Source: Candidatus Zhuqueibacterota bacterium
Lineage (GTDB): Bacteria; Zhuqueibacterota; Zhuqueibacteria; Oceanimicrobiales; Oceanimicrobiaceae
NCBI GenBank assembly: GCA_029262005.1
Contig: JAJDAG010000038.1
Span: 62,001-126,000 of the forward strand
Direction: 5' to 3'
DNA: 64,000 nt
A program made the translations under genes and the position numbers. Positions 37,888-61,589 of the stretch are shown here, in pieces (the stretch's first letter is position 1; each line of letters opens with the position of its first letter). The notes under the pieces were generated by a model, which was not told where the DNA came from, ran no database searches, and worked only from the letters and a program-made list of their open reading frames with translations.

Positions 37888-39261
37888 TCAGGTGGTGATT
37901 GGTTGCGTTGTAAATGTGTGGTATTCCAATTCGTTTAGGTGTTTGTTGAGAAAAACATATCCGGCGATGAGCGCGAGCAGGCAGGCGCAGAGATAACCGT
38001 ATCCAAAGAAGACATACCCCAGATGTAATGTTGCGCCTGTTAACAGGACATTGGCACCAAGGAAAACAGAGGCTACTTTGACTAACTTCGATGCCATATC
38101 AAAGTACATCATAAAGATCATAATTGTCAGCAACATCATTTGTAAAAAAACAGCAATCAGTGCCTTGTCGAGAATGATTGCACCGAGCCCGGGAAGCTTT
38201 AAAAAAGCCGCAATTTCGTCTGAAAAAAGCAGGCAAACAAGGGTGACGGTTCCCTGAATTTTAAGGAGCCCTCCGATACTTTCACGAACTGATTTGGCGA
38301 TCTCACTTTTGTTCTGATAGATTCTTGCAAGCGTATTTTTGTTCAAGATCGATTCGTAATATATGCGAAATCTGCTGTAAAAATTAGTCTCGATTTTTAC
38401 TAGAAAATATGTGTAGGCTGGAATGGTGGTCATGTAGGCGATAAACATGGCGCCATCATAGTCTGTGAACACGTAGAGCATATCGTGTACTTGCTCGCCT
38501 TTGTCGCTGAACCAAAATATTATTTTATCAACCCAAATACCAAGATTGTAGAAAAAGCCGATTGCAATAAGTTGCGGCATCTTGCCAATATACGATGCTA
38601 TTTCAAAATTGGGTGTGTCATCACTCTTAAACTCGATAAAAATACGTATCAGGAGAATAAACAGGAGTATGACCTGGCCAAATGTGTAACCGTGCAGGAA
38701 GCCCGTAAGTCCAAAGGCTTTCCCCAATGTGTATGCAGCAAAAAAGCTTATGGTTAACCCCGTTGCAAAGGCATACATGACAATTTGATAATTCTTGACT
38801 GCGCTTAAAAATATCATAAGCTGCCAGATGCAGCCAATAACAATAAAAAGCATGAGTGCGGCCAGCTTGTAGTTGAAGCCAATGTTCCAAAAGAGGAAAA
38901 ACGGCAAACCGATTATGAGCTGACAGACAATTGTGATTGTCAGTACCACAGTAAAGGTCGGCAATATCTTTCTAAACTTGCTCGCATAAATCAGGTCGGA
39001 TAGAAATCGGGTGATGAGGAGTTGGCTTAAACCAGTGGATATCAGAGAAAATGCGAATACGTAAACCACTGTGATGAGAAAAATGCTCATCTCACCACTT
39101 CTTAAGAAAGCGGCGGAAAAAATACCAAGCAAGACCAGACAGAGAATGGAAAAGAAAATCGGCCCACCTGCGATGGAAGCAGAAAAAATGACGCCACGCA
39201 GGTTGTCAAGATAGGTGTCTTTTTCAAATATCTTTCTTAGTTTGAATCCAATGCCGGCCAT
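37888..39261 (-). CDS. pelG: PelG, inner-membrane Pel polysaccharide transporter
   Basis: The 457-residue, about 12-helix membrane protein begins with the PelG-typical MAGIGFKLRKIFEKDTYLDNLRG, which I recognise from PelG of Pseudomonas. It has the MOP-flippase-like pattern of paired hydrophobic helices and a mid-protein FYNLGIWVDKIIFWFSDKG. In the characterised system PelD, PelE, PelF and PelG form the inner-membrane synthase complex, and PelG helps carry the growing glycan across. It overlaps pelF by 25 bases, so the two are translated together. It is the last gene of the locus. Confidence 0.92.
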   Translation of the reverse strand: MAGIGFKLRKIFEKDTYLDNLRGVIFSASIAGGPIFFSILCLVLLGIFSAAFLRSGEMSIFLITVVYVFAFSLISTGLSQLLITRFLSDLIYASKFRKILPTFTVVLTITIVCQLIIGLPFFLFWNIGFNYKLAALMLFIVIGCIWQLMIFLSAVKNYQIVMYAFATGLTISFFAAYTLGKAFGLTGFLHGYTFGQVILLFILLIRIFIEFKSDDTPNFEIASYIGKMPQLIAIGFFYNLGIWVDKIIFWFSDKGEQVHDMLYVFTDYDGAMFIAYMTTIPAYTYFLVKIETNFYSRFRIYYESILNKNTLARIYQNKSEIAKSVRESIGGLLKIQGTVTLVCLLFSDEIAAFLKLPGLGAIILDKALIAVFLQMMLLTIMIFMMYFDMASKLVKVASVFLGANVLLTGATLHLGYVFFGYGYLCACLLALIAGYVFLNKHLNELEYHTFTTQPITT

Positions 39262-40757
39262 GGCTCAGGTTCTCTGATATGTTGTTCATAGATTTTACGA
39301 TAATGATTGTGCAGGTCAATGCGATTGTAGAATCTGGCCACTCGTTTTCTTCCTGCTTCTCCCATGCGCTCCATCAATTCAGGTGAACGCCAAATTCGTA
39401 GAATAGCATTGGCTATTTCTTCGGAATTGGTAATGCCTGCAATCAAACCGCTTCTTCCCAACGCAATGTCTGCATCTGTTCGGCCATAGAGAAGTTCGCG
39501 GCAGGCTCCAACATCGGTAGAGACAACAGGAATGCCAAGGCTGTTCGCCTCCAGGATTACCAGTGGCTGTGCCTCGCTGATGCTGGTTAAGGTGAGTATG
39601 TCAATTTTCGGATAATATTCTTTTACATCAACTTTACCGGTGAACTCAATAAACCGCTTCAATCCCAAAAAATCGACAAGTTTTTGACATTCGTCATAAT
39701 ATGCCGGCTCTTCATCTGTGGGCCCCATAATCAAAATTTTTAGATTGTGAACTACATCGGTTACGCTCTTGCAGGCTCGTATAAACGTTTTAACATCTTT
39801 TATTGAAACAACCCGCCCCATGAAGCCCAGCACGAGTTGCTCTGGCTCTGTCTTCTCCTCGCGTTTGAGCGTGCTGAAAGTAGCGTAATCAATTCCGTTT
39901 GGGATAATTTTTAGTTTTTCAAGCGGTGCACCATCTTTGATTTGGTACCTCTGGTTGCCTTCGAATAAAGTGATAATTGCGTCAGCATTTTCGTAGCAAA
40001 TTTGACTGAACGTTGCAAACATTTTGTTCCAAAGGCCTTTGAAACGACTTTGTGACCGTTGAACTTTTACTCTGCGATCTTCTTGTTCATAAATCCAGTC
40101 AGCACGGCTAATTTCAAACCGTCTCTCCCGCGTGTAAATTCCGTGTTCGGTTAAAATTACCGGCCGGTTGTAACGCATCTTAGCCACGGCTGCCAGCAGT
40201 CCCGCGTAACCGGTCGATACAGTATGATAAATTGAAGCGCTCGGCAGGGGAGCGGATAATATTTTGAATATCGGGATATGCATGAAGCGGAAAGTCCAGA
40301 AATAATCAATAAACGATTCATCAGATGCGTTCCTTAAATATAGAGACTTCAGGATTTCCCAAGCTTCTTTTTCGCTGGGAATTGCTTCCTGCGATATCCC
40401 GCGAGTATCCGCATTGAAGAAGTTGTGATAGGCTGTTTGAAGTGCTTGCCACTTTTCTTGTCCTGCCGGACACATGTGGAATTTCTCAATATCCCCCCAG
40501 GCATCGGAGGGTAACTTTTTCTTGCGTTTTTCAGGTAAGTGCATGTCGTGCAGAAAGACGTGTTGGATATCTATCACGTTATCCGGTAATTCAAACTTAC
40601 GCTGGCAGGAGCCGTCGTCACTGGGAAGAATTACAGCGAGTGAAAATGTGAATTCCGACATGGACGATACAAGGCCGTGCACCCAACTGGATACACCGCC
40701 TGCAACATAGGGGTAAGTTCCTTCCAGGATTAAACAAACATCCGTTTTTGTTTTCAT
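39237..40757 (-). CDS. pelF: PelF, cytosolic glycosyltransferase for Pel
   Basis: The 506-residue GT-B enzyme of family GT4 begins VCLILEGTYPYVAGGVSSWV, the PelF hallmark. The C-terminal domain has KIIPNGIDYATF, LGFMGRVVSIKDVKTFI and the EX7E motif SEAQPLVILEANSLGIPVVS. In characterised systems PelF polymerises amino sugar from a UDP-linked donor at the inner membrane with PelD, PelE and PelG. There is no clear ribosome site. It lies 49 bases after the response-regulator gene and is separated from pelE by the whole pilus cluster. Confidence 0.94.
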   Translation of the reverse strand: MKTKTDVCLILEGTYPYVAGGVSSWVHGLVSSMSEFTFSLAVILPSDDGSCQRKFELPDNVIDIQHVFLHDMHLPEKRKKKLPSDAWGDIEKFHMCPAGQEKWQALQTAYHNFFNADTRGISQEAIPSEKEAWEILKSLYLRNASDESFIDYFWTFRFMHIPIFKILSAPLPSASIYHTVSTGYAGLLAAVAKMRYNRPVILTEHGIYTRERRFEISRADWIYEQEDRRVKVQRSQSRFKGLWNKMFATFSQICYENADAIITLFEGNQRYQIKDGAPLEKLKIIPNGIDYATFSTLKREEKTEPEQLVLGFMGRVVSIKDVKTFIRACKSVTDVVHNLKILIMGPTDEEPAYYDECQKLVDFLGLKRFIEFTGKVDVKEYYPKIDILTLTSISEAQPLVILEANSLGIPVVSTDVGACRELLYGRTDADIALGRSGLIAGITNSEEIANAILRIWRSPELMERMGEAGRKRVARFYNRIDLHNHYRKIYEQHIREPEPWPALDSN

Positions 40758-40806
40758 CGATTTTTCTGGAGACCGTTCTACTTATTTGTTCACAGAGGAA
40801 TCCTGT

Positions 40807-41214
40807 TTAACCCCTGAGCGTTACGTCCGTTTTGATCCCGACTTCCTGCAAACTCTTCAGCAAAACAGAGAATATATCCATCTTATTGAGCGGCTTAAAC
40901 AGGTATGTGTAAGCCCCTTTCTGAATGGCCTCCCGGACCAGATTGCCATCGCTATATGAAGAGATTATGATAATTTGTGTTTTTGGTTGCAGCACTTTCC
41001 ATTTAACAAGTGTTTCAATGCCACTCAAGCCCGGCATGTTTATATCGAGAAATGCCAGGTCAATTTGTTGCTTTTCGCATATTTCAAGCGCTTGAGTTCC
41101 GTCTGGGACCAAGTGTAACTGGTATTTTGGGTCCTTAATTATTGCGCGAAAATAGCTTAAAATATCGACGTCGTCATCGGCAACCAATATTGAAATCGTT
41201 TGTTCGGCGCTCAT
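40807..41214 (-). CDS. Receiver-only response regulator between pilQ and pelF
   Basis: The 135-residue protein has AGGAG upstream of the ATG. It is a stand-alone CheY-like receiver: VADDDVD acidic pocket, phosphoacceptor Asp in LAFLDINMPGLSG, the switch residues IIISSYSD and the lysine in YTYLFKPLNK. No output domain is attached. It starts 15 bases after the pilQ stop and ends 49 bases before pelF, so it belongs to the same transcript. It could act by protein contact on pilus or Pel components. Its kinase is unknown. Confidence 0.88.
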   Translation of the reverse strand: MSAEQTISILVADDDVDILSYFRAIIKDPKYQLHLVPDGTQALEICEKQQIDLAFLDINMPGLSGIETLVKWKVLQPKTQIIIISSYSDGNLVREAIQKGAYTYLFKPLNKMDIFSVLLKSLQEVGIKTDVTLRG

Positions 41215-41229: not shown

Positions 41230-42597
41230 TTACTCCATGCTCTTTTGCATTTTGTCTATTAAATCAAAATCTTTTTTGAATAGCGTTTCGGTTTCTGAGT
41301 CTATGATGATCGTTGGCGTGATAAAAACAATCAACTCTGTTTTGGCCTTCGACGTTTTTTTGTTCTTGAATAGCAATCCAAGTAAAGGGATATCCCCCAG
41401 AATCGGTACTTTTGTCTGGCTCTGGATAATGGAATCTCTGATAAGGCCGCCAATCACAATGGTTTGACCATTTTTTATTTTTACAACTGTTGTCGCTTTA
41501 CGCGTTGAAATGATCGGTGTGCCATCCGGCGTGAAGCCGTTTTGAAAATCAGCTTTGGGTGACACGTCCAACATGATATATTCAGAATTAATGATATGTG
41601 GCTTTACACGAAGTTGAACGGTGGCATCTTTAAATTCAAACGAGGTGACCCCAAACTCGTTGAGTTTTTTAAATGGGATTTGATCGCCCACTTCAATTGT
41701 TGCTTCTTGATTATCGATAGTGACGACTCGTGGTCTGGAAAGAAGGTTCAGGTTGTTGTTCTGACTTAATGCGTGCAGCACAGCGGTCACATTTGTATTT
41801 AAGATACCGACACCGAGTCCACTGCCGACAGGAAAAGGAAACGTATCTTCCTGAGTCGGCTCTGCTTCTTCTTGCCCCTCTTCTTCCTGTTGCTGCAGGT
41901 CAAAAGATGTGCCGATTTGCCCCTTAATAGACTTCACATTTGCGGTTTTCCACAGCCATTCAACGCCCAGTTCATTGCCGTCTGTTGTAGAGACTTCTAC
42001 AATTTCCGCCTGAATATAAATTTGTTGGGTGGGCCCGTCCAGAGACTTTATCAGGCGTTCCATATCGGCCACCACATCAGGTCGTTCCTTAATAATAAGC
42101 GTGTTGGTGCGTTTGTCGGCCATGACCGCCCCGGTTTTTGAGGTAATCATTGTTTTCAAAATTTCTTTCATTGCTTCTGCGTCTGCATATTTACATCTAA
42201 TATTGCGCACAGCAGTTAATTGACCCAGGTTTTCTCTGTCTGCAACATAAAGTACATTGCCTCCCAACTCCTTGTACCCTAGCATTGATGCCTCAAGAAT
42301 AGCTTTGAATGCATCTTCCGGAGTAATATTAGTAAAATGCATGTTGACCTTGGTATCCTTGACAGACGGCGCCAACAAAAGGTTTTTCCCCAGTCGATTA
42401 GCAAGTAATTGCAGGGTATTTGTAAGAGAAACATTGTTTAAATTCAAGTCGATGGTTTCTTGAGATTGTACCTGTTGCTGAGCACCGTGAAGCAAGGCAA
42501 CATTGCTGGAGCCGATACAGTGCAGGCAGCACAGAAAGATACAAAAGTCAATGAAATAGTAGGAAGCGGTTCGTGCTATTTTTTTTAATTCATCCAT
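41230..42597 (-). CDS. pilQ: PilQ-like secretin
   Basis: The 455-residue protein is short for PilQ because it lacks AMIN domains. An N-terminal hydrophobic signal is followed by an STN/N0-like domain (LNNVSLTNTLQLLANRLGKN), an N1 secretin domain (DAEAMKEILKTMI, KRTNTLIIKERPDVVADMERL) and the secretin core with VVTIDNQEATIEVGDQIPF, NGQTIVIGGLIRD and VPILGDIPLLGLLF then ELIVFITPTII. It would form the outer-membrane pore for the pilus. An acidic Glu/Gln-rich insertion (QQQEEEGQEEAEPTQED) interrupts the middle. It starts 20 bases after pilP. Confidence 0.92.
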   Translation of the reverse strand: MDELKKIARTASYYFIDFCIFLCCLHCIGSSNVALLHGAQQQVQSQETIDLNLNNVSLTNTLQLLANRLGKNLLLAPSVKDTKVNMHFTNITPEDAFKAILEASMLGYKELGGNVLYVADRENLGQLTAVRNIRCKYADAEAMKEILKTMITSKTGAVMADKRTNTLIIKERPDVVADMERLIKSLDGPTQQIYIQAEIVEVSTTDGNELGVEWLWKTANVKSIKGQIGTSFDLQQQEEEGQEEAEPTQEDTFPFPVGSGLGVGILNTNVTAVLHALSQNNNLNLLSRPRVVTIDNQEATIEVGDQIPFKKLNEFGVTSFEFKDATVQLRVKPHIINSEYIMLDVSPKADFQNGFTPDGTPIISTRKATTVVKIKNGQTIVIGGLIRDSIIQSQTKVPILGDIPLLGLLFKNKKTSKAKTELIVFITPTIIIDSETETLFKKDFDLIDKMQKSME

Positions 42598-42617: not shown

Positions 42618-43103
42618 TTATTCAATTTTCGGTAATTTAAGCAAAAGGTCGCCCTTAGTCGAACGCAGTTGGACTTTGTTATGGGATATCCTTATAACCC
42701 GATAGCCACCAATGATGTCGCCAACCTGGACAATTTGACCGCCTATTACCGCGGATGGCACTTGTTTTGCCCACAGAATTCCGCCCAAATGCGGGGCACG
42801 AATCTTCTTTGCTGCGGCTTTTTCTGTTGAATTAGAATTCAGCTTTGGCAAAGCAAAGGGGTCTCTGATGGCTTGCTGGGTTCCCATTGTTTTTATCAGT
42901 TTCTTTGTGATTTCAGGGTCTAGTGTTTTAATTTTTTGGAAAATTTTTAAATAGGAGTCATCGATTCTATTGTCTTTGTCATTTATCAAGAGAGTTTTGG
43001 CTGCCTTGTAGCCTTCGTTCTTACTCAGAGCACTTTTAAACAAAACGATTGCTGCAATCATGATAGTTGCCAGCATGGCAACTGTAATTATGAGTTTTCT
43101 CAA
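42618..43103 (-). CDS. pilP: PilP-like alignment-complex protein
   Basis: The 161-residue protein starts at a TTG that overlaps the pilO stop (TTGA). A single N-terminal helix (VAMLATIMIAAIVLF) precedes a linker with RDPFALPKL. The C-terminal PilP/GspC-like beta domain reads LGGILWAKQVPSAVIGGQIV then VGDIIGGYRVIRISHNKVQL. PilP bridges the inner-membrane PilNO complex to the secretin. The usual lipobox is absent, so it is anchored by a helix and not by lipid, as in GspC. Confidence 0.82.
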   Translation of the reverse strand: MRKLIITVAMLATIMIAAIVLFKSALSKNEGYKAAKTLLINDKDNRIDDSYLKIFQKIKTLDPEITKKLIKTMGTQQAIRDPFALPKLNSNSTEKAAAKKIRAPHLGGILWAKQVPSAVIGGQIVQVGDIIGGYRVIRISHNKVQLRSTKGDLLLKLPKIE

Positions 43104-43735
43104 TGTAAGATGTCCGTGTCTACGGCCAGACCGTCTGCTTGTAGCTTTAAGCTAGCCGGCGTCACGTCCAGAATTAGCTTTAACTGGCCTGTAAGCAGCT
43201 TCTCATTCTCTTCGGTGCTAAACAGGTTAAAATCACGAATCAATAGCACTTCATCAGCTGACTCTATTTGTTGAAAAAGATTTAGGATTGACGGGAATGT
43301 GCCGGAAAAATTTACATCGATGCTTACCAGTGGTGTTGCTAACGTATCCGCTGAAAATTCATCTTGACCTGCAACTTCGTCCTGAATGGATGTTTCGAGT
43401 TTCAATCCAGCGGTCTTTGCTTTCTGTTTCAGACGCGACACAAAGAACGGGATCTGTTCATTCGTTAATATGCTCGCATCAAGTTTTATGCGTTTGTCAT
43501 CGAGGAAGTCAACTTTTCGCTCCAGTCGCGCCACAATTTTGGATAAATCCATTGCGCCCAGTTCAATGTAGGTGTCGGTCATTCTCACAATGTTTTTCTG
43601 CAATTCCTGCGAGAGATTTTGGCGCGGGCTGATCAACAAATAATGAACAACCCAAACGCCTACCACGAGCCCCAGACCTGCTGCGATAAATATTGCAGGG
43701 TGATAAACTTGTATGATTTTTTTTATCCAATCCAT
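43100..43735 (-). CDS. pilO: PilO-like alignment-complex protein
   Basis: The 211-residue protein is placed at ATG 43735 (MDWIKKIIQ). A frame extension to 43777 exists. One transmembrane helix (AIFIAAGLGLVVGVWVVHYLL) is followed by coiled coil and a ferredoxin-like periplasmic domain (LVSIDVNFSGTFPSILNLFQ, DEVLLIRDFNLFST). It pairs with PilN in the inner-membrane platform. Its stop overlaps the pilP start. Confidence 0.82.
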   Translation of the reverse strand: MDWIKKIIQVYHPAIFIAAGLGLVVGVWVVHYLLISPRQNLSQELQKNIVRMTDTYIELGAMDLSKIVARLERKVDFLDDKRIKLDASILTNEQIPFFVSRLKQKAKTAGLKLETSIQDEVAGQDEFSADTLATPLVSIDVNFSGTFPSILNLFQQIESADEVLLIRDFNLFSTEENEKLLTGQLKLILDVTPASLKLQADGLAVDTDILH

Positions 43736-43808
43736 GGCAAAAAATAAAATTGATTTAAACAAAAAGCTGTGATTCAACCGACAATTTTGTCAGCAGTCGT
43801 TTCTCGCG

Positions 43809-44441
43809 TTACAGAATCAGGTCGTCCCATGAAAATTCCAGCATGAAATTATGATAATACTGTTGTCGTTGCTGGGCAACCGTCAGCCCCTGCAGGTCAA
43901 CACGAGTACTGGCAAATGAAAATGGCCTGGCTTTCTGCGTAGCAGTCAAGAATTTTTGAATCTGGCTGTCATCTTGATTTTTCAAATCCAGGAACAGGTT
44001 GCCTTTCACCATCATGACTTTTTTGTCAGGGCCAGTATAATCATTATCGTCAGGATTTTGACTATCAACAGTGACAAAGTGAATTTCCTTAAGCCAGAAA
44101 TTGCCGGGAATTGTCTCAGTCAGGGCGGTCAAACTTTCTCTGATAAAGCTGAACTCCACAGCATTGTGATATGAATTTTTGAGTTGCATACTGTATTGTT
44201 TTTGCTGCTGGTGCAGTTCAACTGCTTTCTTGAATTGTGGTGATGAGACGTCAATTTTTTTCTTAATGCCGGCTATCTGCACTTGATAGGTGTTTATGTT
44301 ATCCTGGACATTGACTAATTTTAGAAAAAGAAGCATACCGGCAATAATCCACATCGCGCCATATGCCGCGATTAGACCTGTTCTAAGGGATTCACGTTTG
44401 GATTGGGCAAGTTCATTTTGCAAAAAATTTACTTTGAGCAT
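43809..44441 (-). CDS. pilN: PilN-like alignment-complex protein
   Basis: The 210-residue protein begins with a short cytoplasmic peptide, MLKVNFLQNELAQ, the counterpart of the conserved INLLP motif that binds PilM. Then come one helix (AAYGAMWIIAGMLLFLKLV), a coiled coil and a periplasmic domain (SLTALTETIPGNFWLKEIHF). It follows the pilM stop by a single base, with AGAGGACAATAAG before the ATG, so translation is coupled. Confidence 0.84.
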   Translation of the reverse strand: MLKVNFLQNELAQSKRESLRTGLIAAYGAMWIIAGMLLFLKLVNVQDNINTYQVQIAGIKKKIDVSSPQFKKAVELHQQQKQYSMQLKNSYHNAVEFSFIRESLTALTETIPGNFWLKEIHFVTVDSQNPDDNDYTGPDKKVMMVKGNLFLDLKNQDDSQIQKFLTATQKARPFSFASTRVDLQGLTVAQQRQQYYHNFMLEFSWDDLIL

Positions 44442-44442: not shown

Positions 44443-45534
44443 TTATTGTCCTCTTATGATTGCACCAATGCAGGGCGTAAAATATAGCCCGTCGGCATTT
44501 TCCTCTTGTTCTTCCGCTTCCTGTTCGTGAGCGTGAGGTTGTTCTAATTGATTGATCGGGTACCAAAGTTCAGTATTTATACTCAAGTGCCGCTGAAACG
44601 TATCAGCGAGTAGGTACAACTGTGCCCCGCCTCCGGTCAGTAAAATTTTCTCGATTTGGGCAACGCCTTCATTTGTTTGGAAGTAGCGAATACATTTTTT
44701 GACTTCTGCGATAAGCAGGGTGCAGTATTCTGCAAAAATTACCGGTAACTTAGAATCCTGATATGACTTCTTGTTTGCCCATTTTTTCTGATACATCTTA
44801 CGTTTCAAGGTTTCTGCTTTATTGTAAGTTATGTTGAGGTCTTCCATTATGTGTTTGGTTATATCGTTTCCACCAAGATTGATTATGTGAAAAAACGGAT
44901 CTTTTCCCGGTTGTGTGATAACACAAATCGTGTATTGTGAGCCTATCTGTACAATGGCTGTTGGCTCTGAAATGGCGTCGCTACACAAATGTTCAAAAGC
45001 ATTGTAGATTTCCAGTGCGTCCGGATCTAACACAGTGGGTTTCAGCCCGGCTCGGCTTAATATTTTCTCAACTCGCTTAACGACAACATCGGGTACGGCG
45101 CAAGCGAACAAAGTCGTATGCTCGTCATTGATTTTGTCGTTTTCAAGCACCTCACAGGCGATCTGCATTTCATCGAAATTGGCATTACAAGTCTGTCTAA
45201 GCTCATCCTGAACAAGTTCAGATAATTCTTCCTCGCTCTCCGGCGCAACGACAGTTATGCCTCTCAGTATCGCTGAGCTGCTAGGGATGGTCGCCGCTAC
45301 AAAAGAATTGGCCAGTTCGTATTTTTCTACTAATTGGCTCAGTTGCTGCACGTAAAGTTCATCCGTAATCTCTTCATATGCCTCAAGAGGGCCTTGATTT
45401 ATTAAATCCACGACCTCATGAAACAGGAGTTCGTATTTGTGGTGATGCTGTTGGACACCTATGATTTTGATGTTAGTTGAGCCTAAATCAACGCCAACGC
45501 GTATTTTTTTTGGTAGAAATTTCAAGGTCTGCAC
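44443..45534 (-). CDS. pilM: PilM-like actin-fold pilus assembly protein
   Basis: The 363-residue protein starts at a GTG at 45534. The actin/FtsA-like ATP-binding fold shows phosphate-1 VGVDLGSTNIKII, the phosphate-2/adenosine region FFHIINLGGNDITKHI, and KILLTGGGAQLYLLADTF. PilM sits on the cytoplasmic face and binds the PilN N-terminus. A His/Glu-rich stretch (PHAHEQEAEEQEENAD) near the C-terminus is not usual for the family. It is 131 bases downstream of the pilX-like gene. Confidence 0.88.
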   Translation of the reverse strand: MQTLKFLPKKIRVGVDLGSTNIKIIGVQQHHHKYELLFHEVVDLINQGPLEAYEEITDELYVQQLSQLVEKYELANSFVAATIPSSSAILRGITVVAPESEEELSELVQDELRQTCNANFDEMQIACEVLENDKINDEHTTLFACAVPDVVVKRVEKILSRAGLKPTVLDPDALEIYNAFEHLCSDAISEPTAIVQIGSQYTICVITQPGKDPFFHIINLGGNDITKHIMEDLNITYNKAETLKRKMYQKKWANKKSYQDSKLPVIFAEYCTLLIAEVKKCIRYFQTNEGVAQIEKILLTGGGAQLYLLADTFQRHLSINTELWYPINQLEQPHAHEQEAEEQEENADGLYFTPCIGAIIRGQ

Positions 45535-45665: not shown

Positions 45666-46769
45666 TTACGCCGGTGGTTCCTGCCAAAGAGTAATTTTGC
45701 GATCAGCACTCTTCCCCTTCCCTTTTCCCTTCCCTTTTCCTTTCCTTTTTCCTTTTCCCTTTTTTTCATCATCATCATCATCATCATCATCGTCACCTTT
45801 ATTTTTAAATGTGATACCCGATAGGTTTTCTATGTATTGCCGGGCATAAGTAATTTTTGTTCTATTGGTCAGTAATTTCAAGTCATCGTGGGTCACGATG
45901 GCGCCGTTGTAGGTGCAATTTGAACCGCTTATTTCAAAGTCGTCGTGACAATAAACAAAGCCATTAATGACAACGTTGCTTGCGCGGCCTTCAAAGTCAT
46001 TTTTAATAAGAGCCGCTGGAGAAGTTGGCGGCACTGCATTGATCTGTATGTTGTAGCCGCTGAGTACAACATCTTTTTCACTTACAAGGGTGCCATTGAT
46101 AACCACATTCGAAGTAATTCGCACCCCCTTTTTAAAATACCAGACACCTGTGTACGGACTTTTCCTCGAATCAAGTGTCTTTTGGGAACTGAAGTAGTGT
46201 CTTGAGGCAATGGCCGCAGCCTTGAATAGATTCCAGTTGACATGTGGGGTTTGGATATTGGTCCCATAAGAAGCTGTGCCATTTAGAGTGAATCTTTTGA
46301 CGTTTTTAATTTTCTTATTCGCGTGAATATCCCCATTTACAGTGCCGGTTGTGTAAGAGCCAAAGTGGATATCTGCTTTTGCCATCAGCGCGTATGGCCA
46401 CTTGTTTTCATCGGCTTCATCAAGAGTGACAATTATGGTCTTTAGGGCGCCTTTCGCACTGCCGACAGCGGTAATTTGTTTGAGACCAGCGTTGTAGTTA
46501 ACTTTCACGCTTGCGTCGGAATAGGTTGCTGCTGCGGCAGAGACTTTGTTTAGACGCCATAACGCTTTATGAATCCCGGCTTCCGCATTGTAAAACGCTT
46601 TTATTTTGTTGGCATGCTTGCTTGTGTTCAGCAATTCAAAACCACCAATGCTGATCATGGTTAAGCCGAGCATGGTGAAAATAGCGAAAAAGATGAGAAC
46701 AAGACCCAGGATCGTGCCTTGTTGGTTATGCAAAACGGTGCAGGTTCTCGCGTTCTTGCCGGATTTCAT
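45666..46769 (-). CDS. PilX-like minor pilin with poly-Asp and Lys/Gly tail
   Basis: The 367-residue protein has a PilX-type N-terminus: a prepilin-like leader, then GTILGLVLIFFAIFTMLGLT and an FYNAEAGIHKALWRLN block. The middle shows parallel beta-helix-like repeats (KKGVRITSNVVINGTLVSEKD). Near the C-terminus nine aspartates in a row are followed by a ~20-residue Lys/Gly tail and a short end, KITLWQEPPA. The tail is encoded by a pure purine tract. Its ATG overlaps the pilW-like stop (ATGA). It may sit at the pilus tip; the charged tail is a striking addition. Confidence 0.78.
   Translation of the reverse strand: MKSGKNARTCTVLHNQQGTILGLVLIFFAIFTMLGLTMISIGGFELLNTSKHANKIKAFYNAEAGIHKALWRLNKVSAAAATYSDASVKVNYNAGLKQITAVGSAKGALKTIIVTLDEADENKWPYALMAKADIHFGSYTTGTVNGDIHANKKIKNVKRFTLNGTASYGTNIQTPHVNWNLFKAAAIASRHYFSSQKTLDSRKSPYTGVWYFKKGVRITSNVVINGTLVSEKDVVLSGYNIQINAVPPTSPAALIKNDFEGRASNVVINGFVYCHDDFEISGSNCTYNGAIVTHDDLKLLTNRTKITYARQYIENLSGITFKNKGDDDDDDDDDEKKGKGKRKGKGKGKGKGKSADRKITLWQEPPA
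45709..45792. repeat. Homopurine-homopyrimidine tract and CAT trinucleotide repeat in a pilin gene
   Basis: Positions 45709-45767 are pure pyrimidine on the plus strand (59 bases). Positions 45767-45790 are eight CAT units, followed by CGTC. On the coding (minus) strand these give the Lys/Gly tail and the poly-Asp run. Such tracts slip during replication and can form triplex structure, so the tail length may vary between cells. The frame stays open for unit-of-three changes in the CAT part. Confidence 0.85.
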
Positions 46770-48626: not shown

Positions 48627-48726
48627 GATTTGACTCCTTTTAATAAAATGAAATGATAGTTTGATAACCTTTGTCTGTAAATTTGTTTCGATAATATCCA
48701 GGAGCCCGGCATGGCAGGTGCATTGC

Positions 48727-52061: not shown

Positions 52062-52452
52062 TTATGAGCCTTTAGCCAACTATGTTTATCGGCCGGATTT
52101 CGAGTGTCTTTAACTATAGGTAAGCGATTGGGTTTAGTCGCTATTCAGCACCCCAACTGCTTTGGCAGTCTCAATGGAAAAGTAACTGTCTAAAAAGTTA
52201 CTCGGCGATGCCTTTGATTTTGGCATGCAATGCTTTCGCGTTGCGATTTTCATTAAAAAAAAGCAAAACTAAAGTGTTCCACTCGGAAGTTTCTTCCGTC
52301 TGAATGGTTAGTCTTAAACAGATTTAACATGTAAATTGTATTGCATTTACTCGCTTTGTATTTTTTAAAACTCCTGGCGAATTCAGCGTTCTCTATGGTT
52401 TATAAATAACTCAAGCCGGGCGCTGGTTTTTGGTAATGCATCGTTCCCATAC
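52062..52452. promoter_or_regulatory. 391-base gap between pelE and pilB, likely promoter of the pilus block
   Basis: The largest gap inside the locus. It contains a short hairpin (AGTAACT 52181-52187 with AGTTACT 52196-52202), which on the minus strand is followed by TTTTCC and may be a weak terminator after pelE. It also holds one copy of the repeat described at 52222-52310. A promoter for pilB is expected downstream of these. No ORF is credible. Confidence 0.5.
52222..52310. repeat. Direct repeat, copy flanking pelD-pelE on the pilB side
   Basis: The stretch (GCATGCAATGCTTTCGC..., GCAAAACTAAAG, CGGAAGTTTCTTCCGTCTGA) closely matches 55078-55166 base for base over roughly 85 positions, with scattered substitutions. 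Same orientation. It lies between pelE and pilB. Confidence 0.75.
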
Positions 52453-53505: not shown

Positions 53506-53541
53506 TGGCAATTCATTACTTTTAATTCAATTTTTTGCGAG

Positions 53542-55023
53542 TTATTCTTCAATCACAATCGGCTCATTTCCTGGTTCGCTGCTGTCTTTGGTTTTATTTA
53601 GTAGAAAGTGGATATCGTCGAATACCGGTGTTATTTCTCGTTGTCCCTCTGCTGCAAGGCGCTCTTCAGCTGTTCTCATCAGGCTTTCGTAGCCACCTTC
53701 TGACGGTTGCAGTACACTGAGTCCGACTTCGAATTCAAGCAGAGTTTCCCTGTCTTCAAACGGCCGCATACCATAATTCACAATTTCATTACAGAGGTCT
53801 TCGGTGATTTTTTCGGATTCCAGGCTGTTTTGTCCGGGCAGAATGATGCTAAACGTGTTATCGTCTGCATACTTGGCAATGATATCGACATCGCGTAAAG
53901 TGTGGTCAAAGATCCAGTTCAGAACCACCAGCACGTTCTTGCGCTCTGAATCATTCATCTCATCAAAGTGTTTGATGCGCAGCAGAAGCAGCGACAATGA
54001 GGAGTGGAAGCGTTTGGCGCGGGATATTTCGTATTGAAGTCTTTTTTGGAAATACGGATAGTTGTAAGCCCCGGTGATCTCATCAGCAATGTTTTTGTCT
54101 TTAAGTCGCTCGAATTGCATGGCCTGGTCAGCAACAATCGATACCCAGTAGGCCAGCACTTCGAAAATCCGTACACTGTTGCTGTTGTAGTCAAAAAATG
54201 GGATTCTTTCAATGTTGATAATGCCAAGCAGTGTTTCGTCTTTTCGTAATATCGGGGCAGCCATGATTTGTTCAATTGCGTCGAATTCGTTGTGATCTTC
54301 CGCCAGCATTTGGTTGATAGTCACCAGACTTTTGTTTTTGACCACTTCTCCCATCATGCCAAAATCTAAATCAACTACGTCTGGCAAACCATCCTCATAA
54401 TTGCTGTTTCTTGCAACCATTTCGAGTTTATTGTTGCGGAGCAAATAGACTGAGGAGCGCGTTACATTGAGTTGGTCTGCCAGCAAGTCCGGTATGTTCT
54501 GATATAGTTGCAGCGGTTGCAACTGTTCGAGATTTGTCAGTTTTTCAAATAGACTGACCATGGTTGTAGCCTGAAAGGCCACTCTTTTGTCCAGTTCATG
54601 TTTGGAGTCGCAAAGGGCTTCATGTTCGACACTCAGGCACTCAAGGCCCCTGGCTTTGTCCTCATACTTTTTTTGTAGGTTGTCATGCATTTTTTTGTGC
54701 CAGCCCCGGATTTCACCGAGAACACCGCCCGTGAGGATGAAGAAAAATGGCAAGTTGTACGGGCCATGTGGGAAAGAAAAACGGCTGAACTCGGCTGAGG
54801 CTGTCCCTGAAGCAAGCGCAACGTAAGCCACGGCAGCAAAACTTCCAGCGAAAATACCTTGCAATGTTCCATAACGGACAGCGATGAGCAAAACAACAAT
54901 CCAAAAAGGATGCGGGGTTATATGCTCGAATGCCGTTGAATTTTTTATCAGAAAGAGGTCAATGGCCAGTAAGATCGCAAATCCAAGAAGCGTTTCGAGA
55001 ATGAAGAAATATTTTCGTGACAT
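53542..55023 (-). CDS. pelD: PelD, c-di-GMP receptor of Pel synthesis
   Basis: The 493-residue protein is taken from ATG 55023 (MSRKYFFILE). Four N-terminal membrane segments (ETLLGFAILLAIDLFLI, FWIVVLLIAV, GIFAGSFAAVAYVALA, LPFFFILTGGVLGEI) are followed by a coiled coil, a GAF domain (about 160-300) and a degenerate GGDEF domain. The inhibitory-site motif RxxD is intact as Arg377-Asp-Val-Asp380, while the active-site GGDEF position reads YADDN, so it should bind but not make c-di-GMP. This matches PelD, which turns on Pel polymerisation when loaded with c-di-GMP. Confidence 0.93.
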   Translation of the reverse strand: MSRKYFFILETLLGFAILLAIDLFLIKNSTAFEHITPHPFWIVVLLIAVRYGTLQGIFAGSFAAVAYVALASGTASAEFSRFSFPHGPYNLPFFFILTGGVLGEIRGWHKKMHDNLQKKYEDKARGLECLSVEHEALCDSKHELDKRVAFQATTMVSLFEKLTNLEQLQPLQLYQNIPDLLADQLNVTRSSVYLLRNNKLEMVARNSNYEDGLPDVVDLDFGMMGEVVKNKSLVTINQMLAEDHNEFDAIEQIMAAPILRKDETLLGIINIERIPFFDYNSNSVRIFEVLAYWVSIVADQAMQFERLKDKNIADEITGAYNYPYFQKRLQYEISRAKRFHSSLSLLLLRIKHFDEMNDSERKNVLVVLNWIFDHTLRDVDIIAKYADDNTFSIILPGQNSLESEKITEDLCNEIVNYGMRPFEDRETLLEFEVGLSVLQPSEGGYESLMRTAEERLAAEGQREITPVFDDIHFLLNKTKDSSEPGNEPIVIEE

Positions 55024-55040
55024 GGTGTTTTTCCCAGTGT

Positions 55041-55055
55041 ACAACAAATTGTTGT
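55041..55055. promoter_or_regulatory. Palindrome immediately upstream of pelD
   Basis: ACAACAA-A-TTGTTGT is a perfect 7+1+7 palindrome, 18 bases upstream of the pelD start codon. It could be an operator or an RNA element around the ribosome site. No regulator is assigned. Confidence 0.4.
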
Positions 55056-55077
55056 TTCTTAACCGTTTTTGTTTCCT

Positions 55078-55166
55078 GGAGTGCAATGCTTTGGCTTGCA
55101 ATTTTCATTGAAACAAAGCAAAACTAAAATTTTGCACTCCGAAGTTTCTCACATCTGAATAGTTGC
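55078..55166. repeat. Direct repeat with terminal inverted repeats, pelB side of pelD-pelE
   Basis: This copy is bounded by GGAGTGCAA (55078-55086) and TTGCACTCC (55132-55140), perfect inverted repeats 45 bases apart, and continues with GAAGTTTCTCACATCTGAATAG. Its relative is at 52222-52310, where the inverted repeat has decayed. The two copies flank pelD-pelE. Confidence 0.75.
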
Positions 55167-55205: not shown

Positions 55206-58200
55206 TCAATAGAAGTAAAAGAAGTCAACATTAAAACTGCGGTACTTGTCACTTCCAATCAGTGTGTTTTGACTGCCGTATGCAATGTTGGTGCGCAAAC
55301 GTAAGTTTCTTAGAAGCGTGTATTCCAGGTGTAATGTACCAAAATACTGCATTGTGTTGAGGCGGGGCATCATCCCGATACTGCCGCTGAACTGATAGTA
55401 AAACCGTCGCGTCAATTGGTGGTTTATTGCCGCGCCCAGATAGTGCACGGATTCGTTTTCCGGAATTGAAATAATGGCTGCATTTGCAGCATTTTGGTAC
55501 TGATAACTTAGGTTGTAAAATTGGTAGTATGTCAACAGGTATGGCTTTAAACCCCATTGATAGCCGGCCTGAGCGTACGTTCTTAGTGCATCGCCGAAAT
55601 GGGCCTCGTTTATCGAATGGTGTTCGTAAGAGAGACGATTCCAGATCACAATGTTTTTCATCAATGTGAGATTGAGGTCTGATTGCAATCGGTTTGTTCG
55701 CCCCTCAAAGAAAGACGCCATAAGCGGATCGTTCCAGAGCGCGTTCATGTCCGCAGCAAGATTCAATGAAGCAAATGAGTTAAATCGCCAGAGAACAGAT
55801 CCGGCACCTGCCATGTCCCAGCTATTGCCAAGTCTGCGCGCTTCGGCGCCAAATCTGGTTTGCAGCTCTGGCCTCCAATACGAAGTGACTTGGGTGCCTA
55901 TGTCGCGATACTGCGTATCGGCAAATCCGGGCGTTTCCGAGCTGTAATTTTCTTCGCTTACCCACAACGCCATACCAAACAGAGAAGATATCGCCTTGGT
56001 GAAAGAGAATTTAGAAATTCGTTTGAAGAAATTGTCCGACTGCTGTTCATGACTGTAATCGAATGAAAAAGCCTCCGAGTGCAAACGACGCAGTTCGTTC
56101 AGACGTTGCCGGGCAGTGGGGTGTGCGGGATTCACATCGAGCATCTTTTTCAGGGTGCGCATGCCGGCGTACCATTCGCCTGAATTCAGCTGTGCTTCGC
56201 TTAGATCGAGTTGCAAAGTCGGGTCATCAGGCGCGTATCGTAACAAAGAGCGCATCGATTTTGCGGCTTGCTTAAATTTACGCTGTTGAAACAGGGCACG
56301 GCCTTGTAAGCGCAACGCAAGATAGTTGTCCGGCTGCCTGGCCAGAACATGCTCGGCCCATTTCACGGATTCATCATAATCTTTTAACAGCAGCAGGCCT
56401 TCTGCATAGTTTAGGTAGGTGCTCAAATCTTCGGGATACTGAGAGATGACCGTGCGATACAGCCCAACGGATTTCTCATATTCTCCGCGGTGTGCAAAAA
56501 TACCGGCTCTAACTTCATTGATTTGCCGATCGTCGGGTTGTTGGCGCGTCAAACGAAGCGCTGTTTTGAATTGCTGTTCCGCAGCCTCGGACTCCCCGAG
56601 GCCGGCAAGAAGAGAACCGAAATGATAATGGCTGAAGTAGTCATTGGGGAAATTTTCATGGTGGCGCACATAAGCTGATCGGGCTTTGTCCCACTGATTG
56701 CTCCACGCCAGCGAAAGCGCCAGATGTTGCAGGGTTAAACTATCCGGCGTTGCGCTCTGATCTACATTTTCGAGGTGTTTGGCAGCCAGGCCGTAGAAGC
56801 TGCGATCAAAATAAAATGCGCCGATTTTTTTGTGAATATTGGCCGGTGGAGGCTCAAGCTTGCTAATCTTCCATATTTGCTGGTGCATGCCATCAAAATC
56901 GCGTTGGCGCCAGTGGAGGTTGGCGACTTCCAGCTTCAGGTCAATATTTCCCGGCTCATGGGCGATGAGTTCGTCATACAAGGCGTGTGCTTTTTCAGGG
57001 TGCCCGGTTTTCAGGTAGAGTGCAATCAGCGGCATGGTGAATTTTTTACTGTCCGGACTGAGGCCGGCCAGGTATTCGTATGCCGAAATACTCTCTTCCG
57101 GGAGACCTTGTTTTTCAAAAAAACTCGCCGCGTACAGCAGAAAACGCCTATCTTCTGCATGGTATTTTTCTCTACCATTTTTAATCAGGCGCCGCGCTTT
57201 TTTCGACTCGCCCTGGTGCAGGTACAAATTGGCCAGCCGAATTCTCGTGGCCGCATCTGTTGGCCGTCTGTTTAACAACTCCTGGTATTCATCGATTGCT
57301 TCGTCGTTGTGGTGCGTGCGAACGAGCAGGTCAGCGTATTCAGCCCTCCAGGCGACTCTTAGGGCATTTTGTTCTTTTAACTCTGCATAAAGAGAGGCCA
57401 GGGCGTCCAGTTTTTTTCGGTCTTGATAATAGTGGCGGAGTTTAGTCGCGGCTTCCTGTTGATAAGTTTCATGCTGCAACAGAGTCTGTAAAGTGGCGGT
57501 AGATTGCTCCGGTTGCATGGTATCGTGGTAAAGTTGGGCAAGTTTTGCTTGCCAGATCGGTTCATCTTCGTGTCTTTTTACGATCGCTTGTAGCTGTTCA
57601 ATGGCTTCATCTGTGTACCCAACATGAACGTAAAGATGGTATAAACGCTCGTAGAGTTCATACTGCTGCGGCGTATGACTTATGCGGAACTTTAGGTAGT
57701 TGATCGCTTTTTCAGGTTCGGTTTCCCTGGTCAACTTCATGAGTTTATCAAAATAACGGTCATTGAGTGGATTATGCGAAACCAGGTACTCGAGGTGGGA
57801 GACGGTATGGTCGTAGTTTTGCATCCACAAATAAAGGTCTGCCAGGCGGGCACGCAGCGGATTGTCGTCCGGTGTCGCTTTGAGCACACGTTCGTACTCT
57901 TCTGTTGCCAGTTCTTTCTGATCTGCGTCGATGTAAATATCCCCGAGCCGTTTACGCGAGGCCAAATCAGCTGGACGTTGGCTCAGCAAGCGGCGTAAAT
58001 AGAGTTTTGCCTTGACCCGGTCGTTTGCTGCTAATGTTAGTGTAACCAGTTTTTTGAGCGTGGGGACATCGTTTGGACTTTCATCTATGAGGCTTTGGTA
58101 GATGTCCAGGGCCTTTGGCGAATCAAGGTTCCATTCGTAGGCTTCAGCCAGTTTGCGGCGGTATTCCGGATTTTCCGGAGAGATGTCGATGACTTTTTCA

Positions 58201-58541
58201 AGTGTAGAAATGGTCTTGTTTTTGTTGCCGAGTTGTGAGTAAATGTCAGCAATCTGGTTGAGCGTGTAAGCGTCTATGAGATATTCATCATCGATTTTTT
58301 CTACCTGCTCAACCGCGTTTTCATAATCACCTTCCTGAATGTAGAGCTTGCTGAGTTGCATTCGAACATCGTTGCGGCCTGGTTGTTTTTGCAGCAATCG
58401 GCTGTAGGTTTCTATGGCTTCCTGCGTCCGACCCGATTTGCCGAGCAGATCAGCCAGTCGCAAGTCTGCAGGGAAGACCAGAATACTCGCTGTGACAATG
58501 GTCGCAACGAACAGGAGCGGCCACCAGATTTTTATTTGCAT
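55206..58541 (-). CDS. pelB: PelB-like TPR protein with outer-membrane barrel
   Basis: The 1111-residue protein is close to the ~1190 of Pseudomonas PelB. A single N-terminal helix (WWPLLFVATIVTASILVFPA) is followed by about 800 residues of tetratricopeptide repeats (for example RKLAEAYEWNLDSPKALDIY and FDKLMKLTRETEPEKAINYL). The last ~280 residues are a beta-barrel (GAEARRLGNSWDMAGAGSVL, RNLRLRTNIAYGSQN) ending VDFFYFY with the C-terminal aromatic. PelB makes the export pore and its TPRs dock PelA. Its ATG overlaps the hydrolase stop by 10 bases. Confidence 0.9.
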   Translation of the reverse strand: MQIKIWWPLLFVATIVTASILVFPADLRLADLLGKSGRTQEAIETYSRLLQKQPGRNDVRMQLSKLYIQEGDYENAVEQVEKIDDEYLIDAYTLNQIADIYSQLGNKNKTISTLEKVIDISPENPEYRRKLAEAYEWNLDSPKALDIYQSLIDESPNDVPTLKKLVTLTLAANDRVKAKLYLRRLLSQRPADLASRKRLGDIYIDADQKELATEEYERVLKATPDDNPLRARLADLYLWMQNYDHTVSHLEYLVSHNPLNDRYFDKLMKLTRETEPEKAINYLKFRISHTPQQYELYERLYHLYVHVGYTDEAIEQLQAIVKRHEDEPIWQAKLAQLYHDTMQPEQSTATLQTLLQHETYQQEAATKLRHYYQDRKKLDALASLYAELKEQNALRVAWRAEYADLLVRTHHNDEAIDEYQELLNRRPTDAATRIRLANLYLHQGESKKARRLIKNGREKYHAEDRRFLLYAASFFEKQGLPEESISAYEYLAGLSPDSKKFTMPLIALYLKTGHPEKAHALYDELIAHEPGNIDLKLEVANLHWRQRDFDGMHQQIWKISKLEPPPANIHKKIGAFYFDRSFYGLAAKHLENVDQSATPDSLTLQHLALSLAWSNQWDKARSAYVRHHENFPNDYFSHYHFGSLLAGLGESEAAEQQFKTALRLTRQQPDDRQINEVRAGIFAHRGEYEKSVGLYRTVISQYPEDLSTYLNYAEGLLLLKDYDESVKWAEHVLARQPDNYLALRLQGRALFQQRKFKQAAKSMRSLLRYAPDDPTLQLDLSEAQLNSGEWYAGMRTLKKMLDVNPAHPTARQRLNELRRLHSEAFSFDYSHEQQSDNFFKRISKFSFTKAISSLFGMALWVSEENYSSETPGFADTQYRDIGTQVTSYWRPELQTRFGAEARRLGNSWDMAGAGSVLWRFNSFASLNLAADMNALWNDPLMASFFEGRTNRLQSDLNLTLMKNIVIWNRLSYEHHSINEAHFGDALRTYAQAGYQWGLKPYLLTYYQFYNLSYQYQNAANAAIISIPENESVHYLGAAINHQLTRRFYYQFSGSIGMMPRLNTMQYFGTLHLEYTLLRNLRLRTNIAYGSQNTLIGSDKYRSFNVDFFYFY

Positions 58542-59440
58542 GCGTCTTCTATCGTATGGAAGTAAATTTTATCTAAATTTTTGCTGCTTATGAACGGTAC
58601 AAATTCGTGCTCCCTTGCCAGTTCGATTACAGTCTTTATCCGCGCATCGTTATGCTCGGTGAAATAATCAAGGGTCAGCACTTGCAGGCCGTATTTTTTT
58701 TGCATCTTCTTCAGTTGTTTGAGTTGCGCCTGATAACTGAACTCGGGCTGGACAATGGTCGTATTTTTATCAAAATCAATGCTGGTAAACACCGATTCAG
58801 CCACAACGCCATCGATAGCATCGCCAAACTCACCCAACATGCTAAATCCTCTGTTTGCTACCAGAATGACATCTGGATATTGTTTGCGCATAGCGCGAAT
58901 GAGTCGCACCATGGCCGCCTGTGCACCGGGATATTTTCCGGGCTGATGGTATTTTTCCAGGTACTCGGCAGTGTCGATGGTGTCAAGGAACAACCCGTCA
59001 AATCCATTTTCCAGGATCGGTGGGATGATTTTTTCAAGAATGAAACGGTGCCACGCCTTCTCTCGCACATCGATCATGTGACTGTCCCAATTGGGATTTT
59101 TCTCCAATACCCATGGCTCATTGGCTATCTCACGCCAAAACCAGCGATAATTGCCGACTTCCGCCAGGCTGACATACCCGAGCAGGATCGTTTGCGTTTG
59201 CTGCACCGTAGCCAGGTCCGGATGAGAATCTGCATCGAGGACTGCCAGATCGAACTTGCTGACATCATTTGGCGATACGCTGGCGTTGTAGACACAAACC
59301 CAGTTTCGCACCCATGCAATCGGAGAAGCGTTTCTTGTACTGCGCCTGGCAGAACATCCTAACAGATACATGATTGACACTGCTATTGTGCTGTAATGAG
59401 TAATTGTTGCAAATTTCCGTGTCACTATTGTTCTTAACAA
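58532..59440 (-). CDS. pelA: PelA glycoside-hydrolase domain as a separate lipoprotein
   Basis: The protein is about 302 residues. Candidate starts are a TTG at 59440 and a GTG at 59425; neither has a good ribosome site. A hydrophobic N-terminus ends in a lipobox (MYLLGC). It is a TIM-barrel of the PelA hydrolase (GH166/GH114-like) family: GYVSLAEVGNYRWFW, GFDGLFLDTIDTAEYL with Asp153, and GVVAESVFTSIDF with Glu215, the candidate catalytic pair. In Pseudomonas this domain is the N-terminal third of PelA and trims Pel. Here it is its own gene, placed after the deacetylase gene. Confidence 0.86.
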   Translation of the reverse strand: MLRTIVTRKFATITHYSTIAVSIMYLLGCSARRSTRNASPIAWVRNWVCVYNASVSPNDVSKFDLAVLDADSHPDLATVQQTQTILLGYVSLAEVGNYRWFWREIANEPWVLEKNPNWDSHMIDVREKAWHRFILEKIIPPILENGFDGLFLDTIDTAEYLEKYHQPGKYPGAQAAMVRLIRAMRKQYPDVILVANRGFSMLGEFGDAIDGVVAESVFTSIDFDKNTTIVQPEFSYQAQLKQLKKMQKKYGLQVLTLDYFTEHNDARIKTVIELAREHEFVPFISSKNLDKIYFHTIEDACK

Positions 59441-59501
59441 TTCAGCCGCAAAAAGAATGTTAAGCGAACGTTTGCAGCCCGCATTGGCGTAATTGCTCCG
59501 G

Positions 59502-61589
59502 CTAGTTCATGTTTTCGATAAATACCGATACTCGCCCGGTCATTTGCTGCGAAAACTGTAATTTGCCTGCCGCATTTGTTTTCTCCATTTTCGGTGTCGA
59601 GCCTGGTGTGGAGAATTTCACATCAAAATTTCGGTTTGGCGGCAAATTGCAAAGAATAAATTGTCCGTTACCATACCCTTGGGTTGAAAAAACTATTTTG
59701 TGCTGCGATACAGTGAAATTCTCAATTGTATGTGAAGCCTGTTCAAAATAGATGCGTTCGGGCAAGCGCTCTGCGAGAATGATTTCCGCAGTATCTGCAT
59801 CCGCTAAATGCACGTAGAGTGCATGCTGGTAATGATTAAAACCGAGTACATTTTGTGAGCGTTCCAGGTCGGGGTATTTATCTGAATTGTCGAAACGAAT
59901 GGTCTTGCAGGCACCGAAGTCACGGATTTTCCAACCTGAATTGGTTTGCTCTATCCTGGTGTTGAAATAGCCGTTGACGATGTGCAGGTACTCGCTCATA
60001 AAAATCGGCGCCACTGCTTCGGCCGTGCTGGAATCGATTACTTTTTTCAGCGCGTTCAGTGAGGCAAACCTTTCACCGGAATAGAAGTGATAGTAGACGT
60101 CCATAGGTCTCAGGCGCACGGGTGATTCTGTGTTGGCAAATGTTTCAAGAGCATATTTGTAACCGAAATACGGACCCTGCCATCCATTCGTGTAGGTGTT
60201 TTCATTGGAATTTGGGGCGTAAAGTTGTCGCTTGTTGCCGACATTTGCACTTAAAGGAGCCACGGCTGTGTAAGATCGATTTTTTTCATCGAAAATACTA
60301 TCACCACCATTTACATTCATCAACCCCGCCTTTTCACACAAAGAGATGGCCTCCGGGGTGGGCTTACAATTGCCGGTCCAGAAAAAATTTTTAACGCGTT
60401 TCCCTTTTGGCAAAAGATGCTTGTTTATGAAATCTACTGAGCCGGTTACTTCCTGGGTTACATTAAATTCATAACCTTTGATGGGCAAGTGGCGGGCTTC
60501 GTAACTGTCTTTGTCCTCTGAATCGTCCGCCCAGTAGAAAGGATGAGCATAGGAATGACTGGCAGCCTCAACCCAGTCAATATCAAAGATTGAGCGTGCT
60601 ATTTCACGAAAACGTTCGTTCTGAATCACTTCCCCGACAACCACAGATACCGAAATCGGCCATTGATATCGTTTGATTATTTCATCGCGAATCACTTCAC
60701 CACAATAGGCCTCACGTTGAACTTGAGATTTCGAGATGAGCGCATCACCATCAATGTGCGACATCCAGATACGGAGGCCGTTTTTGGTGGTCACATCCGG
60801 GCGTGGAATGCCTTTGAGTGCAAATGCTTCTTCAAAAAAGCGAAACGGATTTAAACGCCATTGCCTTTTGTGGGTTTCCGCATTGGCGTACATAATATAT
60901 GGCGCCCTCGCGAATCCGCCGTTTGGCCCGGTCAGCACAATATCGCTTTCGCTGCCGGGAATATCATTGCGGCGAATGCTGAGATAGACTTTATTTTTTC
61001 TATTGATGGATCGATATTTTGAATATTGCGTCAGCTCAAAGTCGAGCGTCCGTTCAAATTCTACCATTTCCGGCACTTTTTTTACAAGTTCAATCTTGGC
61101 GATGTCATCACTCCAAAAGTCCTCATCCACAACAAACCCGATTTTTTTCGCGAACTGGTTTATTCTGCTAGCGGGAAGAAAGTCCGCATTGCCGCGATTT
61201 TTGATGGCGCCGATTTCACCCAGAATTACGACCTTGCGGCCGAAATTTATCTGCCGTTCTGCCCAGGTCAGGTATTTTTCGGCATTGCGCATGGCACTGC
61301 TATAAAACCAGGTCAGTACCCCTCGGTATTTTTTCATCTGGTTATCACTCGGCAGGCCGGTCGCCACGTCCCAATAGTCCACGATGCAGCCAAGATGGTT
61401 TAAGATAGTTTCGGCACTTTCGTGAATGTTATTATTGGTCTTAGATTGCCCGCGATCGCTGTCGTAAAGTGCGAGGATGTGCCGAGTCATTTCCTGTCCA
61501 TATAATTCGCGGGAAAGTGTCATGACAAAACTGATGGCAATGGTCCACACTAGAAGTGTGAAGAGTTTAACGGTGAATCGTCTGATCAT
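59502..61589 (-). CDS. pelA: PelA deacetylase part as a separate exported protein
   Basis: The 695-residue protein has an N-terminal hydrophobic signal (FTLLVWTIAISFVMTLS). It then has an alpha/beta domain (residues ~35-160) and a polysaccharide deacetylase domain: SHIDGDAL (Asp280, Asp282) and SHSYAHPFYW (His345, His349), the metal and catalytic residues of CE18. A C-terminal beta-rich region follows (~570-695). PelA partially deacetylates Pel, making it cationic. The hydrolase domain usually joined to it is the next gene, 61 bases downstream. It is the first gene of the locus on this strand. Confidence 0.9.
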   Translation of the reverse strand: MIRRFTVKLFTLLVWTIAISFVMTLSRELYGQEMTRHILALYDSDRGQSKTNNNIHESAETILNHLGCIVDYWDVATGLPSDNQMKKYRGVLTWFYSSAMRNAEKYLTWAERQINFGRKVVILGEIGAIKNRGNADFLPASRINQFAKKIGFVVDEDFWSDDIAKIELVKKVPEMVEFERTLDFELTQYSKYRSINRKNKVYLSIRRNDIPGSESDIVLTGPNGGFARAPYIMYANAETHKRQWRLNPFRFFEEAFALKGIPRPDVTTKNGLRIWMSHIDGDALISKSQVQREAYCGEVIRDEIIKRYQWPISVSVVVGEVIQNERFREIARSIFDIDWVEAASHSYAHPFYWADDSEDKDSYEARHLPIKGYEFNVTQEVTGSVDFINKHLLPKGKRVKNFFWTGNCKPTPEAISLCEKAGLMNVNGGDSIFDEKNRSYTAVAPLSANVGNKRQLYAPNSNENTYTNGWQGPYFGYKYALETFANTESPVRLRPMDVYYHFYSGERFASLNALKKVIDSSTAEAVAPIFMSEYLHIVNGYFNTRIEQTNSGWKIRDFGACKTIRFDNSDKYPDLERSQNVLGFNHYQHALYVHLADADTAEIILAERLPERIYFEQASHTIENFTVSQHKIVFSTQGYGNGQFILCNLPPNRNFDVKFSTPGSTPKMEKTNAAGKLQFSQQMTGRVSVFIENMN

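Follow-up and report, generated by a model that had tools for sequence, protein, structure and literature searches.

A type IV pilus gene cassette nested within the Pel exopolysaccharide locus of uncultured Calditrichota/KSB1 bacteria

Three genera from a single family of the uncultured Calditrichota/KSB1 bacteria carry a type IV pilus cassette inside their Pel exopolysaccharide locus, between pelE and pelF. In the window (the 64,000-nucleotide stretch of DNA analysed here), the Pel locus and the pilus block nested in it occupy positions 37888-61589 of the minus strand and comprise twenty genes, with every gene claimed in a first-pass annotation present (Table 1). Family and structure matches, with position and orthology for PilN and PilP, bear out the claimed order, which reads pelA1-pelA2-pelB-pelD-pelE, then pilB-pilC-two pilins-three minor pilins-pilM-pilN-pilO-pilP-pilQ-receiver, then pelF-pelG. 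The pilus genes do lie within pel with gaps of at most 391 bases, as had been stated: spacing across the locus ranges from overlaps (25 bases for pelF/pelG) to the 391 bases between pelE and pilB. The source contig is 126,667 bases long and belongs to a 5.77-Mb genome (G000) that is 98.7% complete. Judged from gene content and order, the nesting most likely switches pilus and Pel on together rather than creating a new export machine. Type IV pili and matrix polysaccharides are often interdependent, and the studied cases couple them by signalling between separate gene sets; natural relatives in which the two systems are nested, unlinked or single offer a comparative test of functional pilus-polymer coupling.

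Table 1. Genes and junctions of the nested Pel-pilus locus, in window positions
Feature	Position	Strand	Assignment and evidence
pelA1	59502..61589	-	PelA deacetylase half, split gene; matches PelA 9cgy, E 1.6e-89, residues 218-620 to 421-833
pelA2	58532..59440	-	PelA glycoside-hydrolase domain, separate protein; GH114 Pfam; PelA hydrolase 5tcb, E 5e-14
pelB	55206..58541	-	TPR families, 1111 aa; putative outer-membrane barrel
pelD	53542..55101	-	GAF and degenerate GGDEF; I-site RDVD kept
pelE	52453..53511	-	Membrane/TPR protein; orthologue in related pel loci
pelE-pilB junction	52062..52452	-	391 bases
pilB	50475..52061	-	Extension ATPase; T2SSE 1e-133; without N-terminal MshEN c-di-GMP motif
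pilC	49215..50411	-	Platform protein; T2SSF 1e-54
pilA1	48727..49128	-	Major pilin; N_methyl
pilA2	48225..48626	-	Second major pilin; N_methyl motif
minor pilin 1	47458..47952	-	PilV-like; N_methyl
minor pilin 2	46766..47455	-	PilW-like; N_methyl
minor pilin 3	45666..46769	-	PilX/ComZ-like; predicted beta-solenoid head, charged C-terminal tail
pilM	44443..45534	-	PilM_2 1e-33
pilN	43809..44441	-	No family match; named by position and orthology (orthologues in related cassettes)
pilO	43100..43777	-	Weak PilO match (0.0046); 1e-7 in G003 orthologue
pilP	42618..43103	-	Weak match only; conserved; named by position and orthology
pilQ	41230..42597	-	Short secretin; Secretin 1e-49; 63-66% identity to other embedded loci
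receiver (REC)	40807..41214	-	Single-domain; Response_reg 1e-26; last gene of pilus cassette
REC-pelF junction	40758..40806	-	49 bases
pelF	39237..40757	-	Glycosyltransferase; NCBIfam PelF 485.8 bits, 1.7e-145
pelG	37888..39261	-	Inner-membrane exporter; PF16933 1.4e-130

The Pel component resembles the Pseudomonas aeruginosa pelABCDEFG operon in its PelA activities, PelB, PelD with an I-site, PelE, PelF and PelG, and in their canonical order. It differs in that PelA is split, with hydrolase and deacetylase activities both represented but on two genes, and in that the pilus cassette and its receiver separate pelE from pelF. It also has no PelC: the lipoprotein gene is absent from the window locus, where the pelB-pelD gap is just 104 bases, and is likewise missing from relatives' pel loci without pilus genes. 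PelC is often missing outside Proteobacteria. PelB orthologues are 1109-1112 aa long whether or not the locus houses the cassette; sequence analysis identified TPRs in PelB but did not bring out the putative barrel. As far as its available text goes, a survey of Pel operons describes rearrangements and gene gains and losses and names no pilus insertion (PMC7112194), and in the part of the open literature covered we met no report of pilus genes inside a Pel locus. Within that literature, the arrangement is new, as the first-pass annotation had supposed, but functional coupling between pilus and polysaccharide is already known from Myxococcus (PMC5544727) and Nostoc (PMC7690835).

The pilus block contains the core of a type IVa pilus, with an N-methylation motif in four pilins or minor pilins and recognizable PilB, PilC, PilM and PilQ. 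The tandem major pilins (48225-49128) are identical at 123 of 133 residues, most differences falling in the C-terminal half. An AlphaFold2 model of minor pilin 3 (pLDDT 84.6, pTM 0.61) predicts a pilin helix bearing a beta-solenoid head that structurally matches ice-binding beta-solenoids and Thermus ComZ; given low global TM scores (0.2-0.3 on the query), the likeness is one of predicted fold type. The C-terminus of this protein carries a run of nine aspartates and then a tail rich in Lys and Gly, which none of the relatives seen has; because it is confined to the window, the tail was rejected as a trait through which embedded loci might bind Pel. In G003 (L029:7082-8637), the beta-solenoid head is instead fused to minor pilin 2 and minor pilin 3 is a headless, 129-aa protein, apparently through a domain swap between minor pilins. 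PilD- and PilT-like genes, named from the sequence by eye, lie outside the block on other contigs of G000: a prepilin-peptidase-like gene accompanies a PilB on contig C80, and PilM-Q accompany PilT on C199. Because this separate type IV pilus system has its own PilD-, PilB- and PilT-like genes, the nested pilus is a second machine, whose gene content would leave it dependent on a peptidase from elsewhere and, should it retract, on a PilT as well.

Recurrence was assessed by tblastn of all twenty locus proteins against relatives and a scan of 84,980 species genomes. The pelE-pilus-pelF nesting is also found in G002 (KSB1 bacterium OFTM153, 302,830-base contig) and G003 (KSB1 bacterium OFTM356, 330,552-base contig), which belong to two further genera. 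Since both junctions recur in these genomes, the nesting is neither chance nor an assembly chimera, and the latter was rejected. The minor-pilin submodule sits in a different place in each of the three loci, always within pelE-pelF: ahead of pilB in G002, between pilN and pilO in G003 and after the major pilins in the window. In three relatives from the window's own family (G005, G007 and G001) and three from its class (G012, G024 and G033), pelF follows pelE with no pilus genes between them. Among about three dozen Pel loci surveyed, no pelE-pelF insertion in another phylum contained pilus genes; G110 has a 2-kb pelE-pelF gap without them. Beyond these loci, nesting by unrelated pili may have arisen convergently.

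PelG is encoded in 24 of 82 genomes of the phylum. Of 63 class genomes, only nine contain a close orthologue by the PilQ model (E below 1e-170); it lies inside pel in three of them and elsewhere in the other six. All nine carriers also have PelG, versus 19 of the 63 overall (hypergeometric 4e-6); within the two families the co-occurrence has a p of just 0.044, and related genomes are not independent. Coupling is useful at most and not obligatory, because G024 retains Pel although it has no cassette, and the cassette of G001 looks decayed while pelD-G remain. In that stand-alone cassette (L091:2089-7122), a truncated pilC runs into pilO, there is no pilA, pilM or pilN, and an internal stop interrupts pilQ.

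More distant PilQ orthologues (38-46%) are found in Neomarinimicrobiota, several of which show the window's own cassette order, B-C-A-minor pilins-M-(N-O)-P-Q-REC. The free-standing cassettes of Calditrichota and Neomarinimicrobiota contain the same genes as the window block but, unlike it, lie outside pel. All 28 cassette-bearing Neomarinimicrobiota lack PelG, so that the cassette has no inherent tie to Pel. On this comparative evidence, the pilus block appears to be an older, self-contained cassette, whose older gene order the window most likely keeps. In both an RpoBC species tree and a pel tree, G001/G007 branch as the sister of a group, without internal resolution, that comprises G000, G002, G003 and G005. 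The three embedded loci do not form one clade in the trees; the cassette tree marginally rejects a single clade (AU p 0.03), whereas the pel tree (0.47) and the RpoBC tree (0.117) do not. Linkage is absent in G005 and G001/G007 and is therefore not indispensable. A block flanking the embedded locus of G003, about 9 kb from pelG at 96-106 kb, starts with genes for an OPT-like transporter and a small conserved protein and extends through others as far as a patatin-like gene (the OPT and patatin names come from reading the sequences by eye, not from a family search). The same block adjoins the cassette alone in G001, and its first two genes adjoin pel alone in G005. Because these flanking genes are common to the G003 pel-pil locus, the G005 pel locus and the G001 cassette, pel and cassette were probably once neighbours, which suggests that the family's ancestor carried both at one location and that some lineages separated them afterwards. 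The nesting itself may already have been present in that ancestor.

Several features of the junctions make joint expression of the pilus genes and pelF/pelG plausible. No terminator-like site was found on the minus strand at either window junction, and a scan of the 391-base pelE-pilB gap found no sigma70-like promoter on that strand; other promoter types, outside the scan, are possible. In G003, the pelE-pilB and REC-pelF junctions shrink to 98 and 14 bases, and no gap from pelE to pelG is larger than 98. Because REC-pelF gaps are small and terminator-like sites are absent from the window junctions, pelF and pelG are probably on the pilus transcript. The earlier claim of joint expression stands as plausible, given the tight gaps and nesting in three genera; co-expression gives a clear prediction for metatranscriptomes, namely one transcript.

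The c-di-GMP input appears to enter through Pel. In the PelD of the window, the RDVD I-site precedes ADDNTF, which stands where GGDEF would be expected, and a degenerate GGDEF with a kept I-site is also seen in G002, G003, G005 and G007; the I-site is not visible in G012 or G024. The PF16963 (PelD_GGDEF) profile gave no match anywhere, controls included, and so carried no information. The combination of a conserved RxxD I-site with a degenerate GGDEF supports a c-di-GMP input via PelD at the level of sequence motifs. ATPases with MshEN domains bind c-di-GMP through tandem 24-residue motifs, RLGxx...LxxxLxxQ (PMC5013675). These motifs were not found in the window PilB, whose N-terminal motif region is missing and whose alignment to a solved PilB begins at residue 72 of the latter, and an MshEN-based switch by which c-di-GMP would act directly on the pilus was rejected. 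The earlier idea of one c-di-GMP signal for both systems therefore survives for PelD but not as a direct pilus switch.

The account we consider moderately probable is that nesting of a free-standing pilus cassette gives co-expression of pilus and Pel, with Pel leaving by its own PelA-PelB route. The cassette, running from pilB through pilC, the pilins and minor pilins and pilM-N-O-P-Q to the receiver, would have become nested between pelE and pelF in an ancestor within the family. This would place pelF and pelG, both required for Pel synthesis, directly behind the pilus genes, so that Pel would be made when the second pilus is transcribed. PelD would then gate polymer synthesis by c-di-GMP, after translation. 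Outside the cell, the pilus may work alongside Pel as a fibre for attachment or for the matrix, probably with the beta-solenoid minor pilin at its tip, while the polymer would exit through PelA-PelB. The single transcript, the adhesive role of the pilus and the order of these events are what we infer from the arrangement.

It is fairly unlikely, yet the best of the rivals, that the cassette simply landed in pel and was kept by inheritance, each system using its own promoters with no interaction between them. Such neutral nesting would agree with the unlinked state of cassette and pel in three of the six family members that have both, with the intact pel without cassette in G024 (97% complete) beside its congener G012, where both are present and unlinked, and with the PelG-less Neomarinimicrobiota and the decayed-looking cassette of G001. 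It fits less well with retention of the nesting in three genera at about 35% PelF/PelG divergence, despite internal rearrangement, and with the tight spacing in G003.

Co-expression of a self-contained pilus and Pel is also preferred over a Myxococcus-like signalling link, in which the pilus senses contact and PilB and the receiver tune Pel output; we regard such a link as improbable. The M. xanthus PilB does regulate EPS, and there too the pilus is coupled to a matrix polymer, unlike the window through Dif signalling and not through operon nesting (PMC5544727). A single-domain receiver follows pilQ in most related cassettes, and G002 has two histidine-kinase genes between receiver and pelF (L039:10956-14984), one encoding a PAS kinase and the other a hybrid kinase that carries several receiver domains. 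The block showed no signalling genes of the chemosensory type, however, and the receiver was a pilus part first, because it also follows pilQ in Neomarinimicrobiota without PelG.

Little weight can likewise be given to physical coupling. The first-pass annotation suggested it for the pilus; with the secretin included, either would carry, anchor or assist in exporting Pel within one envelope-spanning machine. A dedicated organelle that uses the pilus tip or shaft to bind Pel and deploy it, or PilQ to aid release of the polymer, would be an equally doubtful form of this idea. The nesting itself and the predicted fold of the beta-solenoid minor pilin are compatible with it, and polysaccharide release in Nostoc is reported to depend on PilB and PilQ (PMC7690835). 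In the available text of that report, the cyanobacterial hormogonium system resembles the window in functionally linking a type IV pilus machine to a secreted polysaccharide; its polymer genes include Wza/Wzc/Wzy homologues and are not those of Pel, and no complete pilus block is described inside a synthase operon. Our comparison yielded no positive evidence that the pilus carries, anchors or exports Pel: relatives keep the systems apart or have Pel alone. PilQ replaced no lost exporter, because PelB length and PelC absence are the same in both kinds of locus, and its substitution for PelC or PelB was rejected.

Two further observations fall outside the nested locus. Positions 30991-32928 of the window encode a 645-aa protein with a match to the middle domain of the alpha subunit of hydrazine synthase (PF18582, 1e-18), which is unexpected in this lineage; the match probably reflects a general domain. 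In G068, from another family of the phylum (L190:1106-12164), a separate pelF-pelG set lies near a convergent pilT-pilQ-P-O-M cluster that starts about 200 bases past a 583-aa gene adjoining pelG and is not co-oriented with pel, making it a second, different neighbourhood of pel and type IV pilus genes.
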